This document shows positions 34,869 to 64,000 of a stretch of 64,000 nt of DNA, one piece after another (the stretch's first letter is position 1; each line of letters begins with the position of its first letter). Location: positions 62,001 through 126,000 of the forward strand of contig NZ_LXYE02000016.1 in NCBI RefSeq assembly GCF_001659685.2. Reading direction: 5' to 3'. Made by a program: the position numbers and the translations under genes. Under the pieces are notes generated by a model. That model worked only from the letters and a program-made list of their open reading frames with translations, was not told the DNA's origin and searched no databases. The stretch comes from Labilibacter marinus. Lineage in GTDB: Bacteria > Bacteroidota > Bacteroidia > Bacteroidales > Marinilabiliaceae.

Positions 34869-34944
34869 TGGTTTAAACACTGGTACTAACATCTTATTTT
34901 AGTAGGAAATCGAAAATTATGTTCGATTATCAAAAAACTTTACA

Positions 34945-34952
34945 TACTTTTG
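34945..34952 (+). promoter_or_regulatory. -7 element for the first cobalamin riboswitch transcript
   Basis: TACTTTTG fits TAnnTTTG. TTCG lies 19 nt upstream as a weak -33. The riboswitch begins about 10 nt downstream. Confidence 0.5.
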
Positions 34953-34961
34953 ACAGCGTTT

Positions 34962-35126
34962 TGTGATTAACAAGGTATCCAATCTTGTTAATAAAGGGAA
35001 TTCGGTTAAAGTCCGAAACTGTACCCGCAGCTGTAAGCTCAACATGATGTTTAATACTACAAAAGCCACTATCATTTTTAATGATGGGAAGGCATATTAA
35101 ACAAAGAGCAAGTCAGAAGACCTACA
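34962..35126 (+). ncRNA. Cobalamin riboswitch (first copy)
   Basis: The conserved blocks of the adenosylcobalamin aptamer are in order: a P2-like stem TTAACAAG/CTTGTTAA, 'AAAGGGAATTCGG', 'AAGTCCGAAACTGTACCCGC', 'CTGTAAG', 'AAAAGCCACT', 'GATGGGAAGGC', and the B12-box end 'GTCAGAAGACCT' (35112-35123). It lies in the leader of a BtuB-type receptor gene, 83 nt before its ATG. When bound it should lower receptor expression, either by blocking translation or by a downstream hairpin. No clear terminator follows, which favours translational control. Confidence 0.93.
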
Positions 35127-35208
35127 AAACAAAGCTAGTACAATAATAAATTTCGGGTGAAGATTTTTATTGTAAACGATATTATTCAACAGTATTTAGA
35201 TTTTTTTG

Positions 35209-37488
35209 ATGACGCGAGTATTCGTTATTGCTTTTATGCAATTGTGTTTGTGTGCTAATGTTATATTGGCTCAGCAAGTTGTTTTAAATGGTCAGGTTAC
35301 CGATAATAATACAACTAAGGCTATTGTGTTTGCACATGTTTTTTTGGAAGGAACAGATTGCGCTTCGTATACACAAAAGGATGGTAAGTTTAAATGCGAT
35401 TTGCTAAAAGAAGGAACATACAATCTATGCGTAACTTGTATTGGTTATCATCCCATTAAACAGCAAGTAGAGCTAAAATGGGGGACAAATACTTACGATA
35501 TTGCTTTAACTCCTTCTGTAGAAAATCTTTCTCCCATTGTAATAACAGGAACAGGTACTAGGTATCGTATTGAGAATGTTCCGGTTCAAACAGAGATTAT
35601 TTCAAGCAAAAGCATTGAAGAAATGTCGGGTAGAAATGTAGAGGAGATCATAGCTAGCTTGTCTTCTTCATTCGACTACTCCAGCAGCTCTATGGGCTCC
35701 TATATTAAAATTAATGGTTTGGGTAAAGACTATGTTTTGGTGTTGGTAAATGGCAAACGCCTTACGGGAGGAATTGGAGGAAATGTAGATTTAAGTCGCA
35801 TAAATTCCGAAGATATTGAGCAAATTGAAATAGTGAAAGGAGCTTCCTCTACCTTGTATGGTTCCGATGCTATTTCGGGTGTTATCAATATCATCACTAA
35901 AAAGCCAAAGCAAAAGATTACGGTAACTAACAACACGCGTTATGGAGCTTATCAGGATTGGAAACAGCTAAATACTTTTAGTTACAATAAAGGAGATTGG
36001 TCCAGTAAAACGTCTTTTTCGTGGAAGCAAAATGATGGGTACCAACTCAATGATATGATGTATAATCATAAATGGGAGAGCAATAAGGATTTACCTTATC
36101 TGATTCGTACCTATGATATGCCGGTTAACAAAAAGAAATCTTACACGCTTATTCAAACGTTGGGTTATGATGTAAACAAAAAACTAAGCCTAAATAGTGA
36201 GTTTTCTATTTACGAAAAAACACTGTTCTTCCCTTTTTTAGGACGAATGCACAACCTGTATTATAATAATCTAGGAGCTTCTGTTGGTGGAAAATACAAA
36301 TTGAAGGAAAAAGACTTTATTGATTTTAGTATGGATTACGGTAATTACAAATATTACAATGAATATCCATACAAATATAACGAGCGCTATATTACTCCAG
36401 ATGGACTCGTTAGGGAGACTTATTATCCTGGCGATAGGTTTAAAAATTCAGAACAAAAAAACTTGGTTGTATTGGGCAAGGGCGTATTTCATATAAATGA
36501 TAAAAATACCCTAAGTGCAGGGCTTGAATATTTAGGCGATTTTCTGGAAGCTAAATATCGTTTGGTTCAGGATGAGGCTGAATCGCACACTGCTTCTTTG
36601 TTTGTACAAGATGAATATGAGCTGAATAAGAAAGTAACTTTAGTTGGTGGTGTTCGTGTCATCTACCATAATCAGTTCGGGGTAATTGCCACTCCTAAGA
36701 TTTCGGCCATGTACAAAACAGGTAAATTTACCCATAGAGCCACCTATGCAAATGGTTTTAAAAGTCCCACATTAAAGGAGTTGTATTATTATTACGAAAG
36801 CCAGCGAATGGGCATGCGTCGTTTATATCTGGGTAATGATGATTTAAAACCACAACAGTCGCATTATTATAATATCTCAACCGAGTATAAATACAAAAAA
36901 ATTAGGACTAACCTAAGCTTGTATGTCAACCGATTAAAAAATAAGATTGATTATAAAATCATTGAAACCAAGCCAGAGCATATTAGGCAAGGTATTGAAG
37001 AAACGAAATTCCGATATAATATTTCTGATGCGCAGAGTACCGGATTTGATTGGTCTATTAATGTTGGGTTAGCCAATGGTTTTTCTTTGGCAGGAGGATA
37101 TAGTTATGTGGATGCTCGCAATATAACAGAAGATATACGTTTAAATGGTATTTCGGAGCACAGTGCTACGCTAAAAGCGAGTTGGATAAAGAATTGGAAT
37201 ACCTACGGACTAAACATGAATCTTTCGGCCAATTATAAATCGGATAAGTTTTATTTAGAAGAAGACTTGGAACGTTATTACGCTGCTCCATATCAGCTAT
37301 GGAAGTTAACCACCAGTCATACTTTTAAAAAGTTTAAGGACTGCAATATGGTATTTATAGCAGGGGTGGATAATATTTTAGATTATGTGGATGATGCACC
37401 TTATGGTTCACATTATGGAACCTTGAATCCTGGGCGAAGCTTATTTGTTGGGCTCAATATAAAATTTACAAAGGGAGATAAAAAATAG
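35209..37488 (+). CDS. btuB: TonB-dependent receptor, BtuB-type corrinoid transporter
   Basis: The outer-membrane receptor (about 759 residues) should import B12 or related corrinoids. I start at the ATG 35209 rather than the TTG at 35206. A signal peptide ends near 'VILAQQ'. A carboxypeptidase-regulatory-like domain follows (about 25-105), then the TonB plug ('VPVQTEIISSKSIEEMSGRNVEEIIASL', 'IEQIEIVKGASSTLYGSDAISGVINIITKKP') and a 22-strand barrel ending 'GRSLFVGLNIKFTKGDKK'. The plug motifs match BtuB/FepA-like receptors. The B12 riboswitch in its leader is the main evidence for the ligand. An exported CbiK gene follows after a 416-nt gap. Confidence 0.93.
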   Translation: MTRVFVIAFMQLCLCANVILAQQVVLNGQVTDNNTTKAIVFAHVFLEGTDCASYTQKDGKFKCDLLKEGTYNLCVTCIGYHPIKQQVELKWGTNTYDIALTPSVENLSPIVITGTGTRYRIENVPVQTEIISSKSIEEMSGRNVEEIIASLSSSFDYSSSSMGSYIKINGLGKDYVLVLVNGKRLTGGIGGNVDLSRINSEDIEQIEIVKGASSTLYGSDAISGVINIITKKPKQKITVTNNTRYGAYQDWKQLNTFSYNKGDWSSKTSFSWKQNDGYQLNDMMYNHKWESNKDLPYLIRTYDMPVNKKKSYTLIQTLGYDVNKKLSLNSEFSIYEKTLFFPFLGRMHNLYYNNLGASVGGKYKLKEKDFIDFSMDYGNYKYYNEYPYKYNERYITPDGLVRETYYPGDRFKNSEQKNLVVLGKGVFHINDKNTLSAGLEYLGDFLEAKYRLVQDEAESHTASLFVQDEYELNKKVTLVGGVRVIYHNQFGVIATPKISAMYKTGKFTHRATYANGFKSPTLKELYYYYESQRMGMRRLYLGNDDLKPQQSHYYNISTEYKYKKIRTNLSLYVNRLKNKIDYKIIETKPEHIRQGIEETKFRYNISDAQSTGFDWSINVGLANGFSLAGGYSYVDARNITEDIRLNGISEHSATLKASWIKNWNTYGLNMNLSANYKSDKFYLEEDLERYYAAPYQLWKLTTSHTFKKFKDCNMVFIAGVDNILDYVDDAPYGSHYGTLNPGRSLFVGLNIKFTKGDKK

Positions 37489-37581
37489 ATTAATTAATCA
37501 ATAGGGGTCTAGGTTGCTAGATCATTAACAACAGTACAAATAAATGTTATTTACTGTACATCTTGTTTAGTATCGACATCA

Positions 37582-37613
37582 GTCATTGATCCAAAAAACA
37601 GGATTGAAATGAC
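37582..37613. repeat. REP-like inverted repeat
   Basis: GTCATTGATCC pairs with GGATTGAAATGAC (one bulge) around AAAAAACA. It has no T tract, so it is not a classic terminator. Confidence 0.55.
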
Positions 37614-37731
37614 GATTAAGAATTGTTTTTTGTTTGAACACTTTGAGGAACGAGAAGGTGTGAGTTTAAAACAATTTCAGTCATGAAACCTAGTTTTTTG
37701 AGTGAAATGGGTGCAGTCGACGGTCTTTGGG

Positions 37732-37775
37732 CTTACTTTTTTGACTGTAGAAAAAAGTAAGAGCCTTCACGGCTC
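37732..37775. repeat. Nested palindromes CTTACTTTTTT/AAAAAAGTAAG and GAGCC/GGCTC
   Basis: Two adjacent hairpins, the first an 11-bp perfect stem with an 8-nt loop. Resembles dispersed intergenic repeats of Bacteroidota. Confidence 0.5.
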
Positions 37776-37904
37776 GAGTGAAAAGAGAATGTGGACAATG
37801 TTGATTTCAGATAATAGATATTGCATTGATTAACAATCTATTTAAAACAAAATATTATTAAAATAACAGACAAATATTGACAATCAAACTAAAATTTTAA
37901 AAAG

Positions 37905-38840
37905 ATGAACTTAATTAAAAAAGCATTTTGCGTTTGCGGTGCAGCCGCACTAATGTTCACATCGTGTGAAAAGGACGATACTACTAAACCAATTACATTA
38001 GGAGATAAAGAAGGTATTTTATTAGTTACTTTTGGTTCTACTTATGAAGCTCCTCAAGCTACTTTTAATAATATGGATAAGGCCGCCAAAACCAAGTATG
38101 CTGGCGAAGAAATCCGTTGGGGATATACTTCTACAGATATCCTAAATAAGCTACGTAAAGGTTTAGGCGAAAACGGAATTCAAAAGGATAATGATACCCC
38201 TGAGGAAGCCATGACTCAAATGGTAAAAGATGGATATGCTAAATTTAATGTTCAATCCTTACATGTTATTCCGGGCGAAGAGTATGATGAGTTACTAGAG
38301 GCCAATGAAAAGGTTGAAAAAGAGTTTCCTGGAGTTGAGATTGTAGTAGGCAAACCTTTATTGGATAGCGATGAAGATATTAAAGTGGTGGCTAAAATAT
38401 TAGCCAATAAGTTTAATGATTTAGTAACTATGGGGCCAGTATTATTTATGGGGCACGGAACACCTCATGCCGCTGATGATAGGTACCTTAAGTTAGATGC
38501 AGAGCTAAAGAAGTTAAATGCTAACTTTTTTGTTGGTACGGTTGAAGGTATTGGTTTTGATGCGGGCACAACTTCAATTGGTGCCATTGTTACAAAACTA
38601 CAAGCTCTTACTCCACAACCAACAAGCGTTACTATTACTCCTTTAATGTCTATTGCAGGAGACCATGCCAATAACGATATGAATGGTAATACTGGCGAAA
38701 TCGATGTTAATGAGCAATCGTGGAGAGAACGATTAGTGGGAGCCGGTTACACTGTAAATAGTGTAATGAAAGGTTTAGGCGATTACGACGAAATCAACCA
38801 AATTTGGTTAAATCATTTAGAAGCAGTTAAAATCAAATAA
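37905..38840 (+). CDS. cbiK: Exported CbiK-family cobalt/tetrapyrrole chelatase (lipoprotein)
   Basis: The 311-residue protein belongs to the CbiK anaerobic cobaltochelatase family (ferrochelatase-like fold), whose classical role is to insert cobalt into sirohydrochlorin. Seen here: 'GILLVTFGSTYEAPQ' at the start of the fold, His120 in 'SLHVIPGEEYDEL', His184 in 'MGHGTPHA', Glu214 in 'GTVEGIG', and His254 in 'AGDHANND'. The last three correspond to the family's metal-binding His/Glu/His set, with an insert between the last two. The N-terminus is a lipoprotein signal with Cys21, so the enzyme lies outside the cytoplasm, like CbiK-P of Desulfovibrio. It follows a riboswitch-controlled btuB, and no sirohydrochlorin-pathway gene is present. 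A role in handling exogenous tetrapyrroles is inferred. Confidence 0.88.
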   Translation: MNLIKKAFCVCGAAALMFTSCEKDDTTKPITLGDKEGILLVTFGSTYEAPQATFNNMDKAAKTKYAGEEIRWGYTSTDILNKLRKGLGENGIQKDNDTPEEAMTQMVKDGYAKFNVQSLHVIPGEEYDELLEANEKVEKEFPGVEIVVGKPLLDSDEDIKVVAKILANKFNDLVTMGPVLFMGHGTPHAADDRYLKLDAELKKLNANFFVGTVEGIGFDAGTTSIGAIVTKLQALTPQPTSVTITPLMSIAGDHANNDMNGNTGEIDVNEQSWRERLVGAGYTVNSVMKGLGDYDEINQIWLNHLEAVKIK

Positions 38841-59287: not shown

Positions 59288-60064
59288 ATGAAAAGTTTAA
59301 GAATAGGAATAATAGCCATAGTTTTTGCATCATTTTTAATTTCCTGTCAGGATAATATTGAAGGAACAGGACCTGTAATTACCAAAGAACTTGATGTAAT
59401 GGAGTTTGATAGTTTTGAGTTAGATGGCTCCTTTGATGTAGAAGTCCATTATGGAGAAGAGCAAAAGGTAGTGGCCGTAGGGCAAGAAAATATTATTGAT
59501 CGTTTAAATACTTGGGTTGATAATGACCATTGGAATATCCAGTTGGAAAATGGCAATTATCGTCACTTTAGTTTAAAAGTAATAATTACCATACCTAGCT
59601 TGCGCAGAGCTATTGTGGATGGTTCAGGGGATATTCGTATCGAGTCCGCTTTGTTTGCGGATAAAACGAGCTTGATAGTTGAAGGTAGCGGTAATATGGA
59701 TGTAGTAGCTGATGTGGATGCCAGCGACGAACTTCTTTTAATAATTGATGGAAGTGGAAATATAAGTGCTTCTCATATTGAAACAACTAAACTAGATACT
59801 CGAATAGAAGGCTCTGGAAATATTTCATTAGCAGGAGAAGTAGATACTCAATCCATAGTAATCGATGGTTCTGGTAATTATAAGGCTTTTGATTTAACTT
59901 CCGACACTTGTAATGTGAGAGTTGAAGGTTCAGGAAATGTGCAAGTTACTGTCGGTGATAGATTAAATGTAAATATAGAAGGCAGTGGAGATGTACATTA
60001 CAAAGGCGATGCTATAACAGATATAAATATTGATGGATCTGGAAGAGTAAAAAAAGTAGGATAG
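59288..60064 (+). CDS. DUF2807 (GIN-domain) lipoprotein
   Basis: The 258-residue lipoprotein (signal ending 'FLISCQDN', Cys20) contains the DUF2807 head-GIN beta-helix. It begins with 'ELDVMEFDSFELDGSFDVEVHYGEEQKVVAVGQENIID', followed by a series of strands each ending in GSGN or GSGD ('IVEGSGNMD', 'IIDGSGNIS', 'RIEGSGNIS', 'VIDGSGNYK', 'RVEGSGNVQ', 'NIEGSGDVH'). These turns recur every 18-25 residues and make a right-handed beta-solenoid. The role in the envelope is unknown. A terminator follows. Confidence 0.9.
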   Translation: MKSLRIGIIAIVFASFLISCQDNIEGTGPVITKELDVMEFDSFELDGSFDVEVHYGEEQKVVAVGQENIIDRLNTWVDNDHWNIQLENGNYRHFSLKVIITIPSLRRAIVDGSGDIRIESALFADKTSLIVEGSGNMDVVADVDASDELLLIIDGSGNISASHIETTKLDTRIEGSGNISLAGEVDTQSIVIDGSGNYKAFDLTSDTCNVRVEGSGNVQVTVGDRLNVNIEGSGDVHYKGDAITDINIDGSGRVKKVG

Positions 60065-60167: not shown

Positions 60168-60358
60168 GCTTTTTGGTGATTATACACAATTACAATGTGT
60201 ATAATAAAAGGGAATCCGGTTAAACTCCGGAACAGTACCCGCTACTGTAAGTCCTATTCGGCATCAGCCGATTATGTTTTTTCATACCACAAGCCACTGA
60301 CAATATTTAATTTGTTGGGAAGGCGCGAAAAAACGGGATAAGTCAGGAAACCTGCCAA
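60168..60358 (+). ncRNA. Cobalamin riboswitch (second copy)
   Basis: All conserved blocks are present: the stem TTATACACA/TGTGTATAA, 'AAAGGGAATCCGGTTAAACT', 'CCGGAACAGTACCCGC', 'ACTGTAAGTCC', 'AAGCCACTG', 'TTGGGAAGGCGC' and 'GTCAGGAAACCTGCC' (60342-60356). It is a better match to the consensus than the first copy. It heads the operon of small ORF, cbiK, btuF, btuC and btuD, so B12 should repress that operon. No terminator follows within 80 nt, suggesting translational or mixed control. Confidence 0.95.
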
Positions 60359-60483
60359 GTAAGAAGCTTAGATATGATTGCTTCCGGGTAAGAAGTTGAT
60401 GTTTAGGAATTACTTTTCCGATTACATTATTTTTCCAATGGATGCAAGGTTATGTTATAACAAGATTGTTAACAAAGAAAACC

Positions 60484-60780
60484 ATGCACAATTACAAATT
60501 TTTGTCGGTTATCCTGTATCAGGGTTTCTACAATTATAAAAAATCAGGTAACTCTTATTTTCCTTTGCCAGGATTTAGGGTTGCTATTGATGCTCAATTT
60601 AATCACTGTTTGTTTGTAAATCCACTTTCGGGAAAGACTGTTTCTGCCATAAATAATGGTCGTGCTCGGAGGTGGTTTTATATGAACCTATCTTTGGTTA
60701 AAACCTATTTAGAGCTTGTTGTTTGCGTGGTAAAAAACATAAATCGAGTAATAAACAATAGTCTGAATTATGTGTCGTAG
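60484..60780 (+). CDS. Small ORF between the B12 riboswitch and cbiK, unknown
   Basis: From the ATG at 60484 (the frame is open from 60442) the product is 98 residues: 'MHNYKFLSVILYQGFYNYKK', then a polar middle ('FPLPGFRVAIDAQFNHC', 'SGKTVSAINNGRARRW') and a hydrophobic helix ('LSLVKTYLELVVCVVKNI'). I recognise no family. It ends 11 nt inside the following cbiK frame, so if it is real its translation is coupled to cbiK. It could also be a translated leader that relays riboswitch control. Confidence that it is a gene is moderate. Confidence 0.5.
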   Translation: MHNYKFLSVILYQGFYNYKKSGNSYFPLPGFRVAIDAQFNHCLFVNPLSGKTVSAINNGRARRWFYMNLSLVKTYLELVVCVVKNINRVINNSLNYVS

Positions 60781-61639
60781 ATATATTAGTTTATTATTGT
60801 GTTTCATTTTAATAGGAACTTCGCTTATGGCATCTACTCATAAAAAAGAAAAACCAACGAAAAAAGGCATTTTATTAGTTGCATTCGGAACGACTGTTCC
60901 TTCTGCAAAAGTGGCTTTGGTCAATATGTACCAAAAGGTTGAAAAAGCTTTTCCAGATACAGAAATACGTTGGGCATATACATCTGCTTTTATCCGAAAA
61001 AAGCTTAAAAAGCAAGGTGAGGATATTGATTCTCCTATTGTGGCTATTTCAAAAATGGCGGATGAGGGATTTACTCATATTGCTGTTCAGTCCATGCATA
61101 CTATTCCGGGCTTGGAGTATGAATACTTGGAGCAAACGGTAAAAAGCATTATGGAGATTCCTAAGGGACCCCGAAAAATAGAAATTGGTAGGCCTTTATT
61201 GTACGCTCATGAGGATATTGAAGTAACTGTAAAAGCGATGATAGCTAACTTTCCTGAAAGGAAAAAGGATGAAGCGATGATATTGATGGGGCATGGAACG
61301 CCACATATTTCAAATGTGTTTTATCCAGCCATGAACTATTATTTTGCAGAGGAATGTGAGCATGTTTATATGGGAACGGTAGAGGGTTACCCAAGCATTG
61401 AGGATGTAATTGCTAAGTTAAAACTGAATGGTATTAAAAAAGCCTTTATGATGCCTTTTATGAGTGTAGCTGGCGATCATGCTAAAAATGATATGTGTGG
61501 AGAAGGTGAGGATAGTTGGTACAATATGCTAACAGCTGCAGGAATAGAAGTAGAATGTATTATAAAAGGTACTGGCGAAATGAATGAGGTAGTTTCCATT
61601 TGGGTGGAGCATTTAAAAGATTCCTTTGATAAATTATAA
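60770..61639 (+). CDS. cbiK: Exported CbiK-family cobalt/tetrapyrrole chelatase
   Basis: The 289-residue paralogue of the 37905 gene begins with a signal peptide ('ISLLLCFILIGTSLMAS', no clear lipobox), so it is probably soluble in the periplasm. The fold starts 'GILLVAFGTTVPSAK'. His175 ('MGHGTPH'), Glu205 ('GTVEGYP') and His237 ('AGDHAKND') are spaced 30 and 32 residues apart, the spacing I recall for the metal-binding triad of known CbiK enzymes. 'VQSMHTIPGLEYEYL' is also conserved. It is the first clear gene after the second B12 riboswitch and lies 4 nt before the corrinoid-binding protein gene. Cobalt insertion, cobalt removal or heme/tetrapyrrole binding are all possible. Confidence 0.9.
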   Translation: MCRRYISLLLCFILIGTSLMASTHKKEKPTKKGILLVAFGTTVPSAKVALVNMYQKVEKAFPDTEIRWAYTSAFIRKKLKKQGEDIDSPIVAISKMADEGFTHIAVQSMHTIPGLEYEYLEQTVKSIMEIPKGPRKIEIGRPLLYAHEDIEVTVKAMIANFPERKKDEAMILMGHGTPHISNVFYPAMNYYFAEECEHVYMGTVEGYPSIEDVIAKLKLNGIKKAFMMPFMSVAGDHAKNDMCGEGEDSWYNMLTAAGIEVECIIKGTGEMNEVVSIWVEHLKDSFDKL

Positions 61640-61643
61640 TTGA

Positions 61644-62789
61644 ATGAGCGAGATAATTTTTTGTAAACACAAAAACGTATTTGTACTGTGGTGCATTTTA
61701 ATTCATCTTTTGATGGGATGCACTTCAAAACCTAAATCATCTAACACAGAGGATTCTACTCAGTGGCAAATTGTTCCTTTAAAATATGCTACTGGTTTTA
61801 CCATCGAGAAATCGGATTATAAAACCAGACTCACCATTAAAAATCCTGCAGATTCTTCAAAAATTATTAAGCAGGTTATATTAGTCTCAAATACCTCAAA
61901 ACAGAAACTAAAGGCTGGAGAGATTGCTGTTCCTGCACACAAAATTATTTGTTCTTCCTCCACGCAGCTAGCTTATTTTATGGAGCTAAACGCATACGAA
62001 AGTATTGTTGGCGTAAATAGTTCTCGTTATCTCCACGATAAAATGATGAATGCATTTATTATGGATGGCAAAGTTTCACGTATTGGTAAAGAGGGAAGTT
62101 TTAACAAGGAATTGATCGTAAGCCTAGAGCCAGAAATTATTATGGTTTCTCCATTTAAGGCCGGAGGTTATGATGCCATGAAGAATTTGGAGATTAATCT
62201 GATTCCTATGGCTGCCCATAAAGAAATGACTCCATTGGCTAAAGCCGAATGGATTAAAATGGTGGCTTTGTTTTTAGATAAAGAACAGGAAGCGGATAAG
62301 ATATTTTCAAATATAGATGCCAAATACAATGAGTTGAAACAACTAGCATCGGAAGTAAATAACAAACCGAGCATTTTTAGTGGTAAACTTATTGGAGATA
62401 AATGGTATGTTCCTGGCGGCAATAGCTTTTATGCGCATTACTTTAAGGACGCAGGTGCTGAGTATGTTTTTAAAAATGGCAAAACAGGAGCCGAACCAAT
62501 GGATTTTGAGGTGGTTTTTGAAGAGGCACAAAATGCGGATTATTGGCGGGTTTTAACTAGTAGTCCAGTTGGTTTTAGTAAAGCATCGTTTTTATCAGAG
62601 GACAGACGTTACGACGATTTTAAGGCTTTTCGTGAGAATCATATTTTAGCCTGTAATATCCGTCAAGTTCCTTTTTACGAGCAAAACCCAGTTAAACCTC
62701 ATATCATCTTAGCCGATTATATTTATCATTTTCATCACGAGTTATTACCGTCCGATTATCAACCTTTTTTCTGGACTTCTTTAAAATAA
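61644..62789 (+). CDS. btuF: Corrinoid ABC-transporter substrate-binding lipoprotein
   Basis: The 381-residue protein has a lipoprotein signal ending 'LLMGCTSKP' (Cys27) and a class III periplasmic binding fold: 'KIICSSSTQLAYFMELNAYESIVGVNSSRYLHD', 'LIVSLEPEIIMVSPF', and a long central helix before 'GKLIGDKWYVPGGNSFYAHYFKDAGAEYVF'. This fold carries B12 (BtuF), siderophores or heme. The B12 riboswitch upstream and the FecCD permease 3 nt downstream support a corrinoid or cobalt-tetrapyrrole ligand. It is longer than E. coli BtuF (about 266 residues), as is usual in this phylum. Confidence 0.88.
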   Translation: MSEIIFCKHKNVFVLWCILIHLLMGCTSKPKSSNTEDSTQWQIVPLKYATGFTIEKSDYKTRLTIKNPADSSKIIKQVILVSNTSKQKLKAGEIAVPAHKIICSSSTQLAYFMELNAYESIVGVNSSRYLHDKMMNAFIMDGKVSRIGKEGSFNKELIVSLEPEIIMVSPFKAGGYDAMKNLEINLIPMAAHKEMTPLAKAEWIKMVALFLDKEQEADKIFSNIDAKYNELKQLASEVNNKPSIFSGKLIGDKWYVPGGNSFYAHYFKDAGAEYVFKNGKTGAEPMDFEVVFEEAQNADYWRVLTSSPVGFSKASFLSEDRRYDDFKAFRENHILACNIRQVPFYEQNPVKPHIILADYIYHFHHELLPSDYQPFFWTSLK

Positions 62790-62792
62790 GCA

Positions 62793-63842
62793 ATGACGGA
62801 AAACTCATCTATTTCAAACGGCATACCATTTACCACCAAAGTGATTGGTTTAATTTTACTGCTCATTATTCTGTTTTTAGGAAACTTAATATTGGGATCC
62901 GTTCATATTCCTTTGCCTGAAACTTTAAAGGTTTTGTTGGGACAATCCATCGAGCACAGAAGCTGGGAACTGATTATTTTACGAACTCGACTTCCACAAG
63001 CTATTGTTGCTTTAAGTGCGGGTATGGCTTTAGGTGTGGCAGGATTGTTTATGCAAACGCTATTTCATAACCCTTTGGCCGGACCATCGGTATTGGGTAT
63101 TTCTTCTGGCGCAAGTTTAGGGGTTGGATTTGTTGTAATGGTAGCTGGCCAAGTATTCGGATTATCATTTAGCACTATCGGTTTTTGGGGCGACTTTTCT
63201 GTGGTAATAGCATCTATGTTAGGTGCGTTAGGTATTCTCATGTTAATCCTTTTTATCAGCAGAAAAATTGGAGGAACACTTCCTGTGCTTATTATGGGAG
63301 TAATGGTAGGTTATCTGTCCAATTCAATTGTAGGAATTTTAAAGTTTTATAGCCTCGAAGAAGATGTTCATAATTACGTGATATGGGGTTTGGGTAGTTT
63401 CAGTCGTTTATCATTAACCTCTGCTCTAAACTTTGGATTTGTTACAGTAGGTATTTCCTTGTTAACCATATTTTTATCTAAACCATTAAACCTAATTTCT
63501 TTAGGAGATAGATATGCGAAAAACTTAGGCTTAAATATAAAAAGAGCCCGTTTTGTAATTATCATGACGGCTGGGATATTAACAGCGGTAGTCACTTCCT
63601 TTTGCGGACCAATCATTTTTATAGGAATGGCTGTTCCACACATGGCAAAAATGCTGATTAAAACATCTAATCATATAAAATTAATTATCATGGCAGGAGT
63701 GCTTGGTGCTGCAACAGCTTTATTGTGTAGCATATTAGCTCGCATGCCTGGTTTAGATAATGCTTTACCCATTAATTCTGTTACGGCATTTGTGGGTGCA
63801 CCCGTGGTTATTTCAGTTATCTGGAAAAGAAGGAAGCAGTAA
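62793..63842 (+). CDS. btuC: FecCD-family ABC permease (BtuC)
   Basis: The 349-residue permease has about ten transmembrane helices and family signatures: 'LIILRTRLPQAIVALSAGMALGVAGLFMQTLFHNPLAGPSVLGISSGASLGVG', and 'FCGPIIFIGMAVPHMAKML' with the coupling region, ending 'NALPINSVTAFVGAPVVISVIWKR'. As a dimer with BtuD it would import the corrinoid across the inner membrane. It is 3 nt behind btuF and in the B12-riboswitch operon. The ATPase gene begins 90 nt later across a short tract of repeated words. Confidence 0.94.
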   Translation: MTENSSISNGIPFTTKVIGLILLLIILFLGNLILGSVHIPLPETLKVLLGQSIEHRSWELIILRTRLPQAIVALSAGMALGVAGLFMQTLFHNPLAGPSVLGISSGASLGVGFVVMVAGQVFGLSFSTIGFWGDFSVVIASMLGALGILMLILFISRKIGGTLPVLIMGVMVGYLSNSIVGILKFYSLEEDVHNYVIWGLGSFSRLSLTSALNFGFVTVGISLLTIFLSKPLNLISLGDRYAKNLGLNIKRARFVIIMTAGILTAVVTSFCGPIIFIGMAVPHMAKMLIKTSNHIKLIIMAGVLGAATALLCSILARMPGLDNALPINSVTAFVGAPVVISVIWKRRKQ

Positions 63843-63932
63843 AGGAGTATTTAGTACGTAGTTGGCAGTGTATAGTACACAGTTTAAGGCTGAAAAATAT
63901 ATTGCTAGAAGCTAATAGGTAAAAATAAATAA
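63843..63932 (+). other. Short spacer of repeated words inside the btu operon
   Basis: The gap between btuC and btuD contains TAGTACGTAG, TTGGCAGTG and TATAGTACACAG, a wordy low-complexity stretch like several others in this window. It has no terminator. Confidence 0.4.
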
Positions 63933-64000
63933 ATGAACAAACTCATAAACATAAATAACGTTTCAACGGGATATAAAAATTCTAACGAAACCAAAGTTGT
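63933..64000 (+). CDS. btuD: ABC-transporter ATPase (BtuD-like), cut by the window end
   Basis: The ATG at 63933 opens a frame that runs off the end: MNKLINI-NNVSTGYKNSNE (given in two parts) and then TKVV. 'INNVSTGYK' is the usual first strand of FecE/BtuD-type ATPases. Position behind btuC supports the call. Walker motifs are out of view. Confidence 0.75.
   Translation, partial: MNKLININNVSTGYKNSNETKV

Follow-up and report, generated by a model that had tools for sequence, protein, structure and literature searches.

A riboswitch-controlled B12 operon of Labilibacter marinus led by a predicted exported CbiK: a possible cobalt insertion step outside the cytoplasm

The window analysed here is a 64,000-nucleotide stretch of the Labilibacter marinus genome (G000:C8:62001-126000; a draft of 6.03 Mb in 81 contigs, 99.8% complete), and near its right-hand end a cobalamin riboswitch stands ahead of cbiK, which encodes a CbiK-family cobaltochelatase, and of btuFCD-like genes for a corrinoid-type importer. 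According to the excerpts on which our statements about all papers cited by PMC number are based, CbiK inserts cobalt into sirohydrochlorin and B12 metalation is a cytosolic event (PMC10206600). The locus raises the question of why its CbiK carries a predicted export signal, and why it is encoded with an importer. Our answer, which we hold to be about evenly poised between right and wrong, is that the riboswitch controls an operon for de novo B12 synthesis by the anaerobic route, cut by the end of the window, in which the exported CbiK would be the cobaltochelatase, inserting cobalt in the periplasm, with BtuFCD re-importing the product. It draws on which genes were observed and in what order, on the predicted export signals, and on the findings that exported CbiK and the chelatase CbiX almost exclude each other, that the cobalt importer CbiM is nearly absent and that linkage to BtuFC(D) is frequent.

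An anaerobic B12 operon and its chelatases

A preliminary description of this DNA had listed a B12 riboswitch, a CbiK-family protein with a signal peptide, a BtuF-like lipoprotein, BtuC and the start of BtuD, and these are borne out: the riboswitch by its RF00174 score, the proteins by domain matches and the export signal by a hydrophobic 12-mer (Table 1). The spacings of 3-4 nt that it gave hold between CbiK and BtuF (4 nt) and between BtuF and BtuC (3 nt), but not ahead of BtuD, where there are 90 nt. Followed beyond the window, the btuD frame encodes 342 aa that match ABC_tran, completing the BtuFCD order of binding protein, FecCD permease and ATPase; cbiK is the first intact gene of the operon.

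The same description had assigned the chelatase to uptake and not to synthesis. This is wrong, because the operon runs on into the anaerobic corrin pathway: contig C8 continues for 4.6 kb past the window with btuD, cbiA, cbiL and a cbiH-cbiC fusion, and its last bases encode MKFKIIGISDH, taken as the start of cbiE, while contig C9 opens inside cbiE-cbiT (CbiE from model position 10, and CbiT, both over NCBI cut-offs) and continues with cbiG-cbiF, a YbbL/YbbM-type ABC pair and cbiJ-cbiD. The contig end falls within cbiE, and the order is cbiA-cbiL-cbiHC-(contig end)-cbiET-cbiGF-cbiJD. CbiL was named by its domain and position, its best match of 152 bits being under the cut-off of 163, and CbiH and CbiF were named from TP_methylase domains, fusion partners and position. 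The whole-genome search for cbi and cob genes that had been proposed as a check found a complete corrin pathway of the anaerobic (early cobalt) type (CbiD, CbiG, CbiF, CbiL, CbiH, CbiC, CbiE/T, CbiJ and CbiA) alongside these same CbiK proteins, an outcome that the description itself had named as one that would refute its uptake reading. Cobalt insertion and delivery to BtuF, also suggested at that stage, are favoured by the comparative data below, as a step of synthesis and not as an alternative to it.

The usual form of this pathway has a cytosolic cobaltochelatase, either CbiX or an unexported CbiK, and searches of the genome found neither; its only two CbiK proteins (PF06180 search) are both predicted to be exported. 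CbiM was likewise not found in the genome search. Since hemA, hemC, hemB, hemL and hemE score over NCBI cut-offs, hemD has a weaker match (63.9 bits, under its cut-off) and CobA is present (TIGR01469, 240.7 bits), the genome can probably make precorrin-2. There is no clear Met8, for PF13241, the domain typical of precorrin-2 dehydrogenase, gives six matches in the genome, all of 27.2 bits or less; of these, three loci were inspected, and they encode HemA, a protein resembling reductases and a Rossmann-like protein of 262 aa.

The CbiK protein at the head of the operon matches PF06180 over positions 1-260 of 262, at a cut-off of 26.2 bits; against the NCBI equivalog SiroCoChCbiK (NF047852) it scores 202.6 bits and the second copy 146.6 bits, both under the 400-bit cut-off. 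Its solved relatives are 2xvx (a putative chelatase; the best match), 9b86 (FetB; the second) and 1qgo (the cobalt chelatase CbiK). H175 (GHGT) and H237 (AGDH), which we take to be the histidines of the chelatase site, are invariant in 23 of 23 aligned proteins. It shares family, motif histidines and pathway step with the cytosolic CbiK of Salmonella, which, unlike it, has no export signal. We consider it likely that the window CbiK is the chelatase of its B12 pathway.

Export was called by a home-made rule in place of a trained predictor, taking the mean Kyte-Doolittle hydrophobicity of a 12-mer with a cut-off of 1.5. The window CbiK has such a 12-mer (2.68) ahead of the conserved GILLVAFG strand and is classed as carrying a Sec-type signal peptide, not as a lipoprotein. 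Fifty CbiK proteins of relatives split into a cytosolic group at 0.71 or below and an exported group at 1.70 or above, two lipoproteins that score 1.70 and 1.86 being counted as exported. That the signal-sequence codons are non-coding was considered and rejected, their codon score of -0.313 lying among those of nine other start regions in the window (-0.02 to -0.344).

The second predicted exported CbiK, 35% identical to the first, is encoded behind a TonB-dependent receptor and a riboswitch of its own. Another BtuFCD, at C40, is also linked to a riboswitch; the stretch fetched around it holds no CbiK, its BtuF is 29% identical to that of the window, and it can serve ordinary B12 uptake. Five cobalamin riboswitches occur in the genome, a further two lying at G000:C2:46710-46902 and C34:47651-47865, the latter near a TonB receptor.

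Chelatase, cobalt importer and BtuFCD among relatives

Relatives were examined in a family sample of 71 genomes, 30 of them with CbiD, and in an order sample of 295 genomes, 21 of them with CbiD over the cut-off and three of these common to both samples, so that the combined set holds 48 cbiD-positive genomes; CbiX was counted only above 90 bits. In the family, 12 of the 30 have CbiX and 19 a full-length CbiK, none has neither and one (G340) has both (Fisher 2.2e-7). All CbiK proteins are predicted exported in 15 of the 30, while G338 has exported and cytosolic copies, and cytosolic CbiK occurs in G340, G143 and G334, in the last two within a cbi operon that has no BtuFCD in the fetched stretch. 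Eight further family genomes have a signal-less CbiK and no CbiD (in one, G315, the CbiK is in two pieces), and there CbiK perhaps serves siroheme. In the order sample seven cbiD-positive genomes have CbiX, nine more have exported CbiK only and G087 has a CbiK without signal. Exported CbiK is thus the sole CbiK/CbiX-type chelatase in 24 of the 48 genomes (hereafter export-only). Weak PF01903 (CbiX) matches of 21.5-38.2 bits in export-only genomes and their kin were rejected as CbiX; most fall on CbiK genes, and the three lying elsewhere in export-only genomes (G302, G165 and G133) are ferrochelatase HemH (225-276 bits, cut-off 124.6).

The cobalt importer tends to change along with the chelatase. 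CbiM, looked for in all 48 cbiD-positive genomes and in the eight that have CbiK but no CbiD (56 together), is present in 19/19 CbiX-positive and 1/24 export-only genomes (Fisher 2.5e-11, uncorrected for kinship); among those 56 it was not found in G143, G334, G338 or G105, nor in the eight CbiK-only genomes. In G087, whose CbiK lacks a signal, CbiM directly follows cbiK, and CbiQO-, HemA- and HemC-like genes (by eye) come next. On a CbiD tree of the 48 genomes the export-only label needs 7 changes, and in a comparison of six independent pairs CbiM changed opposite to that label in 4.8 pairs on average, together with it in 0.0 and did not differ in 1.2. These observations support a coupled swap of CbiX and CbiM with exported CbiK.

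The loss of CbiM that accompanies exported CbiK could also be read as replacement of CbiMNQO only, CbiK being a periplasmic cobalt carrier and BtuFCD importing cobalt on a small ligand. An early comparative study (Rodionov 2004, PMC545781) described delta-proteobacteria that have cbiK and no known cobalt transporter, for which cbtX was proposed, and this would suit such an importer. CbiK, however, keeps its motif histidines, and CbiX is missing in the same genomes, so that a chelatase would still be needed; we regard the carrier role as very unlikely. The same study found CbiMNQO only in Geobacter, near cbiX, and a single B12 element controlling cbiK-cbiL and btuCDF in Desulfovibrio; its observations anticipate the pattern that we have counted, minus the export step.

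Some relatives display the exchange as a natural swap. G303 and G309 share a genus label and a cbiL-cbiHC-cbiET-cbiGF-cbiJD block, downstream of which each has genes of 230 and 293 aa that are alike by eye. In G309 this block is flanked by met8-cobA-cbiX and cbiM-cbiQ-cbiO, whereas in G303 those flanking genes are absent at the block and a riboswitch lies directly before cbiL; CbiX and CbiM are absent from G303 genome-wide, and another of its contigs carries receptor-CbiK-CbiK-receptor-PepSY-BtuFCD, both CbiK proteins being exported. Similarly, an unfused type of cbi operon begins with cbiX-cbiM and genes read as cbiN-Q-O in G337, is preceded by receptor-PepSY-CbiK-BtuFCD in G341 and by receptor-CbiK-BtuFCD in G339. 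Tandem exported CbiK paralogues beside TonB receptors are seen at L121:12195-14092 and L074:7001-9162 (G303 and G059).

The neighbours of the chelatase genes differ in kind as well. The 31 fetched exported-CbiK loci of relatives include a TonB receptor in 30, BtuC in 22, PepSY in 14 and CbiM in none; 13 loci with only signal-less CbiK have a receptor in 2, BtuC in 0 and CbiM in 1; and 20 CbiX loci have CbiM in 17 and BtuC in 0, the three pieces without CbiM coming from G308 and G310, whose CbiM is on another piece. CbiX and several cytosolic CbiK proteins stand with a cobalt importer of the ECF type, and the window CbiK with BtuFCD. By genome, the fetched stretches of 23 export-only relatives hold BtuC in 20 and a TonB receptor in 22, all but G029, and among six genomes with a more distant CbiK type BtuFCD or BtuCD is found at a greater distance or on a separate stretch in G133, G277, G106 and G189. 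Of the first 20 CbiK loci fetched, 17 contain a cobalamin riboswitch, the exceptions being L063, L069 and L073; CbiX operons also carry them.

Counting only cbi-linked CbiK genes (67 of 135 rows, those with cbi genes in reach; L170 and L193, which one rule mis-anchored, are not among them), BtuC or BtuF lies within 4 kb on the same strand for 30/44 exported and 2/23 cytosolic proteins (Fisher 2.4e-6, uncorrected). The row of the window CbiK is not included, as the cbi genes that go with it are beyond the window's edge. The relatives alone give 16/26 against 0/3 (p 0.08), and the named records alone (80 loci, kept as the best among at least 564) 14/18 against 2/20. A BtuF tree has three very long branches and was made the basis of no conclusion.

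Those named records extend the arrangement to other phyla, the Desulfobacterota and the Bacillota. A single-protein scan of genome contigs gave no relative, and an alignment-based scan of named genomes was used instead; L209 and L213, for which no CbiK row resulted, are outside the counts. Desulfobacter latus (L169) has riboswitch-CbiK-BtuC-ATPase-binding-protein-like gene-CbiA and Desulfosarcina widdelii (L184) riboswitch-CbiK-BtuC-ATPase-CbiL. In the Bacillota, L214 has riboswitch-BtuC-ATPase-lipoprotein CbiK-BtuF, and the cytosolic CbiK comes after CbiM-CbiQ-CbiO in L216, L228, L229 and L230. A clostridial locus (L198) runs riboswitch-BtuC-ATPase-lipoprotein CbiK, a 474-aa protein read as a binding protein, then CbiL-Met8-HemA-HemC, its Met8 scoring 161.6 bits (over the cut-off) and the last two genes being named by eye. 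Riboswitches were found in 8/8 tested loci, hand-picked from the best 80. Exceptions occur in both directions: L232 and L235 have a cytosolic CbiK near BtuC, and L199, L203, L206 and L234 are exported and cbi-linked with no BtuC or BtuF within 4 kb. In Methanosaeta (L200) a CbiK without signal, a CbiK with signal and a BtuF-like gene are present, and the exported form may reach archaea.

The frequency of TonB receptors at these loci bears on where the substrate of CbiK would come from. A tetrapyrrole might be scavenged through the receptor and imported once CbiK has given it its cobalt, and no export by the cell would then be called for. Consistent with this, cobA and met8, like cbiX and cbiMQO, are missing at the G303 cbi block (for cobA and met8 only this place in the genome was covered), the window genome has no clear Met8, and the 14 Met8-like matches in fetched stretches occur only in CbiX-positive genomes. 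Porphyromonas gingivalis, moreover, lacks precorrin-2 synthesis, in a paper that describes tetrapyrrole precursor salvagers (PMC6461909), is tabled with a cbi pathway (PMC8123684) and has the CbiK-like IhtB with a receptor and ABC importer (PMC10913741). Set against this are the hem genes and cobA of L. marinus, with which precorrin-2 can probably be made, and the clostridial operon in which an exported CbiK accompanies met8 and genes named by eye as hemA and hemC. We judge supply by salvage to be unlikely.

A proposed periplasmic metallation step and its rivals

We propose that a tetrapyrrole at the sirohydrochlorin/precorrin-2 level, made by the cell or taken up, would reach the periplasm, where CbiK would insert Co(II); BtuF would then bind the cobalt-sirohydrochlorin and BtuCD import it, and CbiL with the later enzymes would complete the ring in the cytoplasm. 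Exported CbiK and BtuFCD would so replace the usual cytosolic CbiX with the cobalt importer CbiMNQO. The reaction, its location and the re-import of its product are what we infer here from gene content. CbiL uses cobalt-factor II, and BtuFCD-type importers move corrinoids; the window copy has the three components and riboswitch control of an ordinary BtuFCD importer and, unlike it, is linked to a chelatase and to cbi genes.

Several points weigh against this proposal. We know of no exporter for the tetrapyrrole, and the predicted export of CbiK depends on the hydrophobicity rule given above. CbiX and an exported lipoprotein CbiK occur together in G082, G186 and G275, three of the seven order-sample genomes with CbiX, and G105 has CbiD, yet no chelatase was found in it; HemH, present in the three export-only genomes checked (G302, G165 and G133), could in principle substitute. 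CbiM is the only cobalt importer that was searched for; G313 combines an exported CbiK with a CbiM gene that lies 2 Mb away from the cbi operon, the loci L190 and L191 each hold both an exported CbiK and CbiM, and G143 and G334 have a cytosolic CbiK yet no CbiM. The pair test on the CbiD tree falls short of significance (median p 0.0625, range 0.0625-0.125, with G105 and G338 left out), and on the CbiK tree, where export was compared with having BtuC or BtuF adjacent, there were only 4 pairs. As for linkage, the stretches fetched from the export-only G059, G165 and G290 show no BtuC, no BtuD stands beside BtuF and BtuC in those of G329-G333, and many Desulfobacterota loci have an exported CbiK with neither BtuC nor cbi genes in reach. 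The window protein itself adds two more: it has a Met (M20) just past the hydrophobic stretch, and in a tree of 51 CbiK proteins it clusters with the cytosolic copies of G338 and G340 (100/100).

G105 (L145) may also be viewed in another way: its riboswitch-BtuFCD adjoins cbi genes, with no CbiK, CbiX or CbiM found, and it may import a cobalt-loaded intermediate made by others. Among the Desulfobacterota loci where an exported CbiK has no BtuFCD or cbi neighbours are L174, L160, L162 and L179; in L174 a riboswitch lies directly ahead.

The two points concerning the window protein suggest an alternative in which one gene yields two forms, a short cytosolic CbiK started at M20, or left behind by inefficient export, carrying out the insertion while the exported form is secondary. 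Counted from M20, the N-terminus of the window CbiK is roughly the length seen in cytosolic homologues, its closest relatives (G338_L104 at 66% and G340_L114 at 54%) are both cytosolic, and a Met follows the hydrophobic stretch in 28/91 exported CbiK proteins. As it groups with cytosolic copies, it may act in the cytosol as well; and cytosolic and exported proteins are intermixed in the tree, so export would have been gained or lost repeatedly. The cytosolic CbiK of G338 (L104) adjoins YbbL-YbbM genes, as found in the cbi operon of the window genome, and so may descend from such an operon. The other 63 of the 91, however, have no such Met (ATG starts counted) and some are lipoproteins; every CbiK of G301, G303, G313 and G324 lacks it, in genomes with no CbiX above 90 bits and no cytosolic CbiK; and the missing CbiM would be left unexplained. 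A second form as the working enzyme is therefore, to our mind, unlikely.

A different alternative is raised by the known exported relatives, that CbiK acts in heme or porphyrin scavenging, as FetB/IhtB of P. gingivalis does, and shares only its regulation with B12, cobalt being inserted by another cytosolic enzyme (one of the ferrochelatases named above, or an unrecognised one). FetB, the second-best solved relative, is reported to exchange metals in porphyrins (PMC13402209), and the IhtA-E operon plan matches receptor-CbiK-BtuFCD: it too comprises an exported CbiK-family protein, a TonB receptor and a binding-protein ABC importer. The start of the Iht operon, TonB receptor and CbiK-family lipoprotein, follows the same plan as the second CbiK locus of the window (34944-38840), whose product is a predicted lipoprotein, whereas the first copy is not one. 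FetB/IhtB differs from the window system in being described for heme and iron acquisition, with no riboswitch mentioned for the Iht operon in the excerpts at hand, and IhtB is stated not to be under Fur (PMC10913741). This last statement, the riboswitches of the fetched CbiK loci, the cbi linkage and the exchange with CbiX within genera all argue against a heme function, and we hold it to be improbable.

Another exported relative is CbiK-P of Desulfovibrio vulgaris, which we take 2xvx, 2xvy and 2xvz to be. Lobo is said to have reported in 2008 that this species has two CbiK proteins, and in 2017 to have described CbiK-P as a haem binding protein. CbiK-P resembles the window CbiK in being exported and is its best solved match; one of the two D. 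vulgaris proteins is cytosolic, and the window genome has no such copy. CbiK-P has been named a periplasmic cobaltochelatase (PMC4063343), and a 2020 table gives CbiK-BtuC-BtuD-BtuF-CbiC-CbiD for Sulfurospirillum (PMC7755780). The single pieces are already known; what would be new is exported CbiK as the sole CbiK/CbiX-type cobalt-loading route of a complete B12 pathway, swapped as a unit with CbiX-CbiMNQO. We found no proposal of extracytoplasmic cobalt insertion with re-import by BtuFCD in the literature searched, which was covered in part.

Extending the proposal from L. marinus, we put forward, with a confidence a little short of even, a widespread and so far unrecognised branch of anaerobic B12 synthesis in Bacteroidota, Desulfobacterota and some Bacillota, in which metallation by CbiK, in the periplasm or at the outer membrane face, and import of cobalt-sirohydrochlorin by BtuFCD as a committed intermediate would replace CbiX and CbiMNQO, and which may explain how the P. 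gingivalis pathway is fed. Given that replacement, cobalt for B12 would enter such cells only inside a tetrapyrrole.

The head of the operon and wider meaning

Table 1. Features of the two CbiK loci in the window
Feature	Position	Strand	Support
Second cobalamin riboswitch	34944..35143	+	93.1 bits; ahead of TonB receptor and second exported CbiK
BtuB-like TonB-dependent receptor	35206..37488	+	TonB_dep_Rec 122 bits, Plug 80.2 bits
Second CbiK-family protein, predicted lipoprotein	37905..38840	+	PF06180 198.7 bits; FTSC by eye
Cobalamin riboswitch aptamer RF00174	60157..60373	+	94 bits (gathering 31.5); whole model 1-189
PepSY_TM gene remnant (C-terminal part)	60442..60780	+	tblastn and a model built here
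cbiK, CbiK-family cobaltochelatase with predicted signal sequence	60770..61639	+	PF06180 261.2 bits
btuF-like substrate-binding lipoprotein	61644..62789	+	Peripla_BP_2 76.9 bits; lipoprotein by eye
btuC-like permease	62793..63842	+	FecCD 234.9 bits
btuD-like ATPase, first codons	63933..64000	+	gene continues beyond window (C8:125933 onward)

Between the riboswitch and cbiK lies an open reading frame (ORF) of 112 aa, which overlaps the cbiK start by 11 nt and which had been described as small and unknown. The ORF is there, but it is not without relatives, and by its alignments it is the decayed C-terminal remnant of a PepSY_TM gene. Neither Pfam nor NCBIfam gives a match to it at E 0.01, and its codon score is intermediate (-0.041; 5% point of in-frame pieces 0.040, 95% point of wrong-frame pieces -0.017). 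Its translation finds tblastn matches in 14 loci, which amount to 11 different genes because three are present twice, the best being L119 (45% over 51 aa, E 5e-9); a reverse search with the PepSY_TM proteins from 8 of those loci recovers it, and it aligns with 33 bits to positions 369-440 of a PepSY_TM model built here from 15 hits and a seed (490 positions).

The order receptor-PepSY_TM-CbiK-BtuF-BtuC is found in several relatives (the Pfam identity of PepSY_TM was checked for one), while some, such as G339, have no PepSY_TM gene at that place. At the window locus the receptor is gone and the PepSY gene cut down to its end, leaving the riboswitch now about 400 bases ahead of cbiK. The PepSY_TM membrane protein (as at L103:2459-3931; 14 of the 31 fetched exported-CbiK loci) is a candidate metal reductase. 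In the cbi operon of the window genome, the ABC pair between cbiGF and cbiJD is of the UPF0014 (YbbL/YbbM) type and lies at L015:3030-4455 (G000:C9). Directly upstream of the riboswitch, at window positions 59288-60064, is a gene for a DUF2807 (head GIN domain) protein that is apparently unrelated.

If CbiK acts as we propose, one step of B12 synthesis lies outside the cytoplasm. Cobalt inserted there would spare the cell free cytosolic cobalt and the competition with other metals, and BtuFCD would gain a new substrate. The periplasmic CbiK-P, the roles of FetB/IhtB and the B12 makers that have no known cobalt importer would find a single explanation, and genome rules that call B12 producers by their cobalt transporter, or that take all CbiK to be cytosolic, would need revision. 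It would also offer an explanation, open to test, of how the corrin pathway could be used by bacteria that have kept it but do not make precorrin-2.

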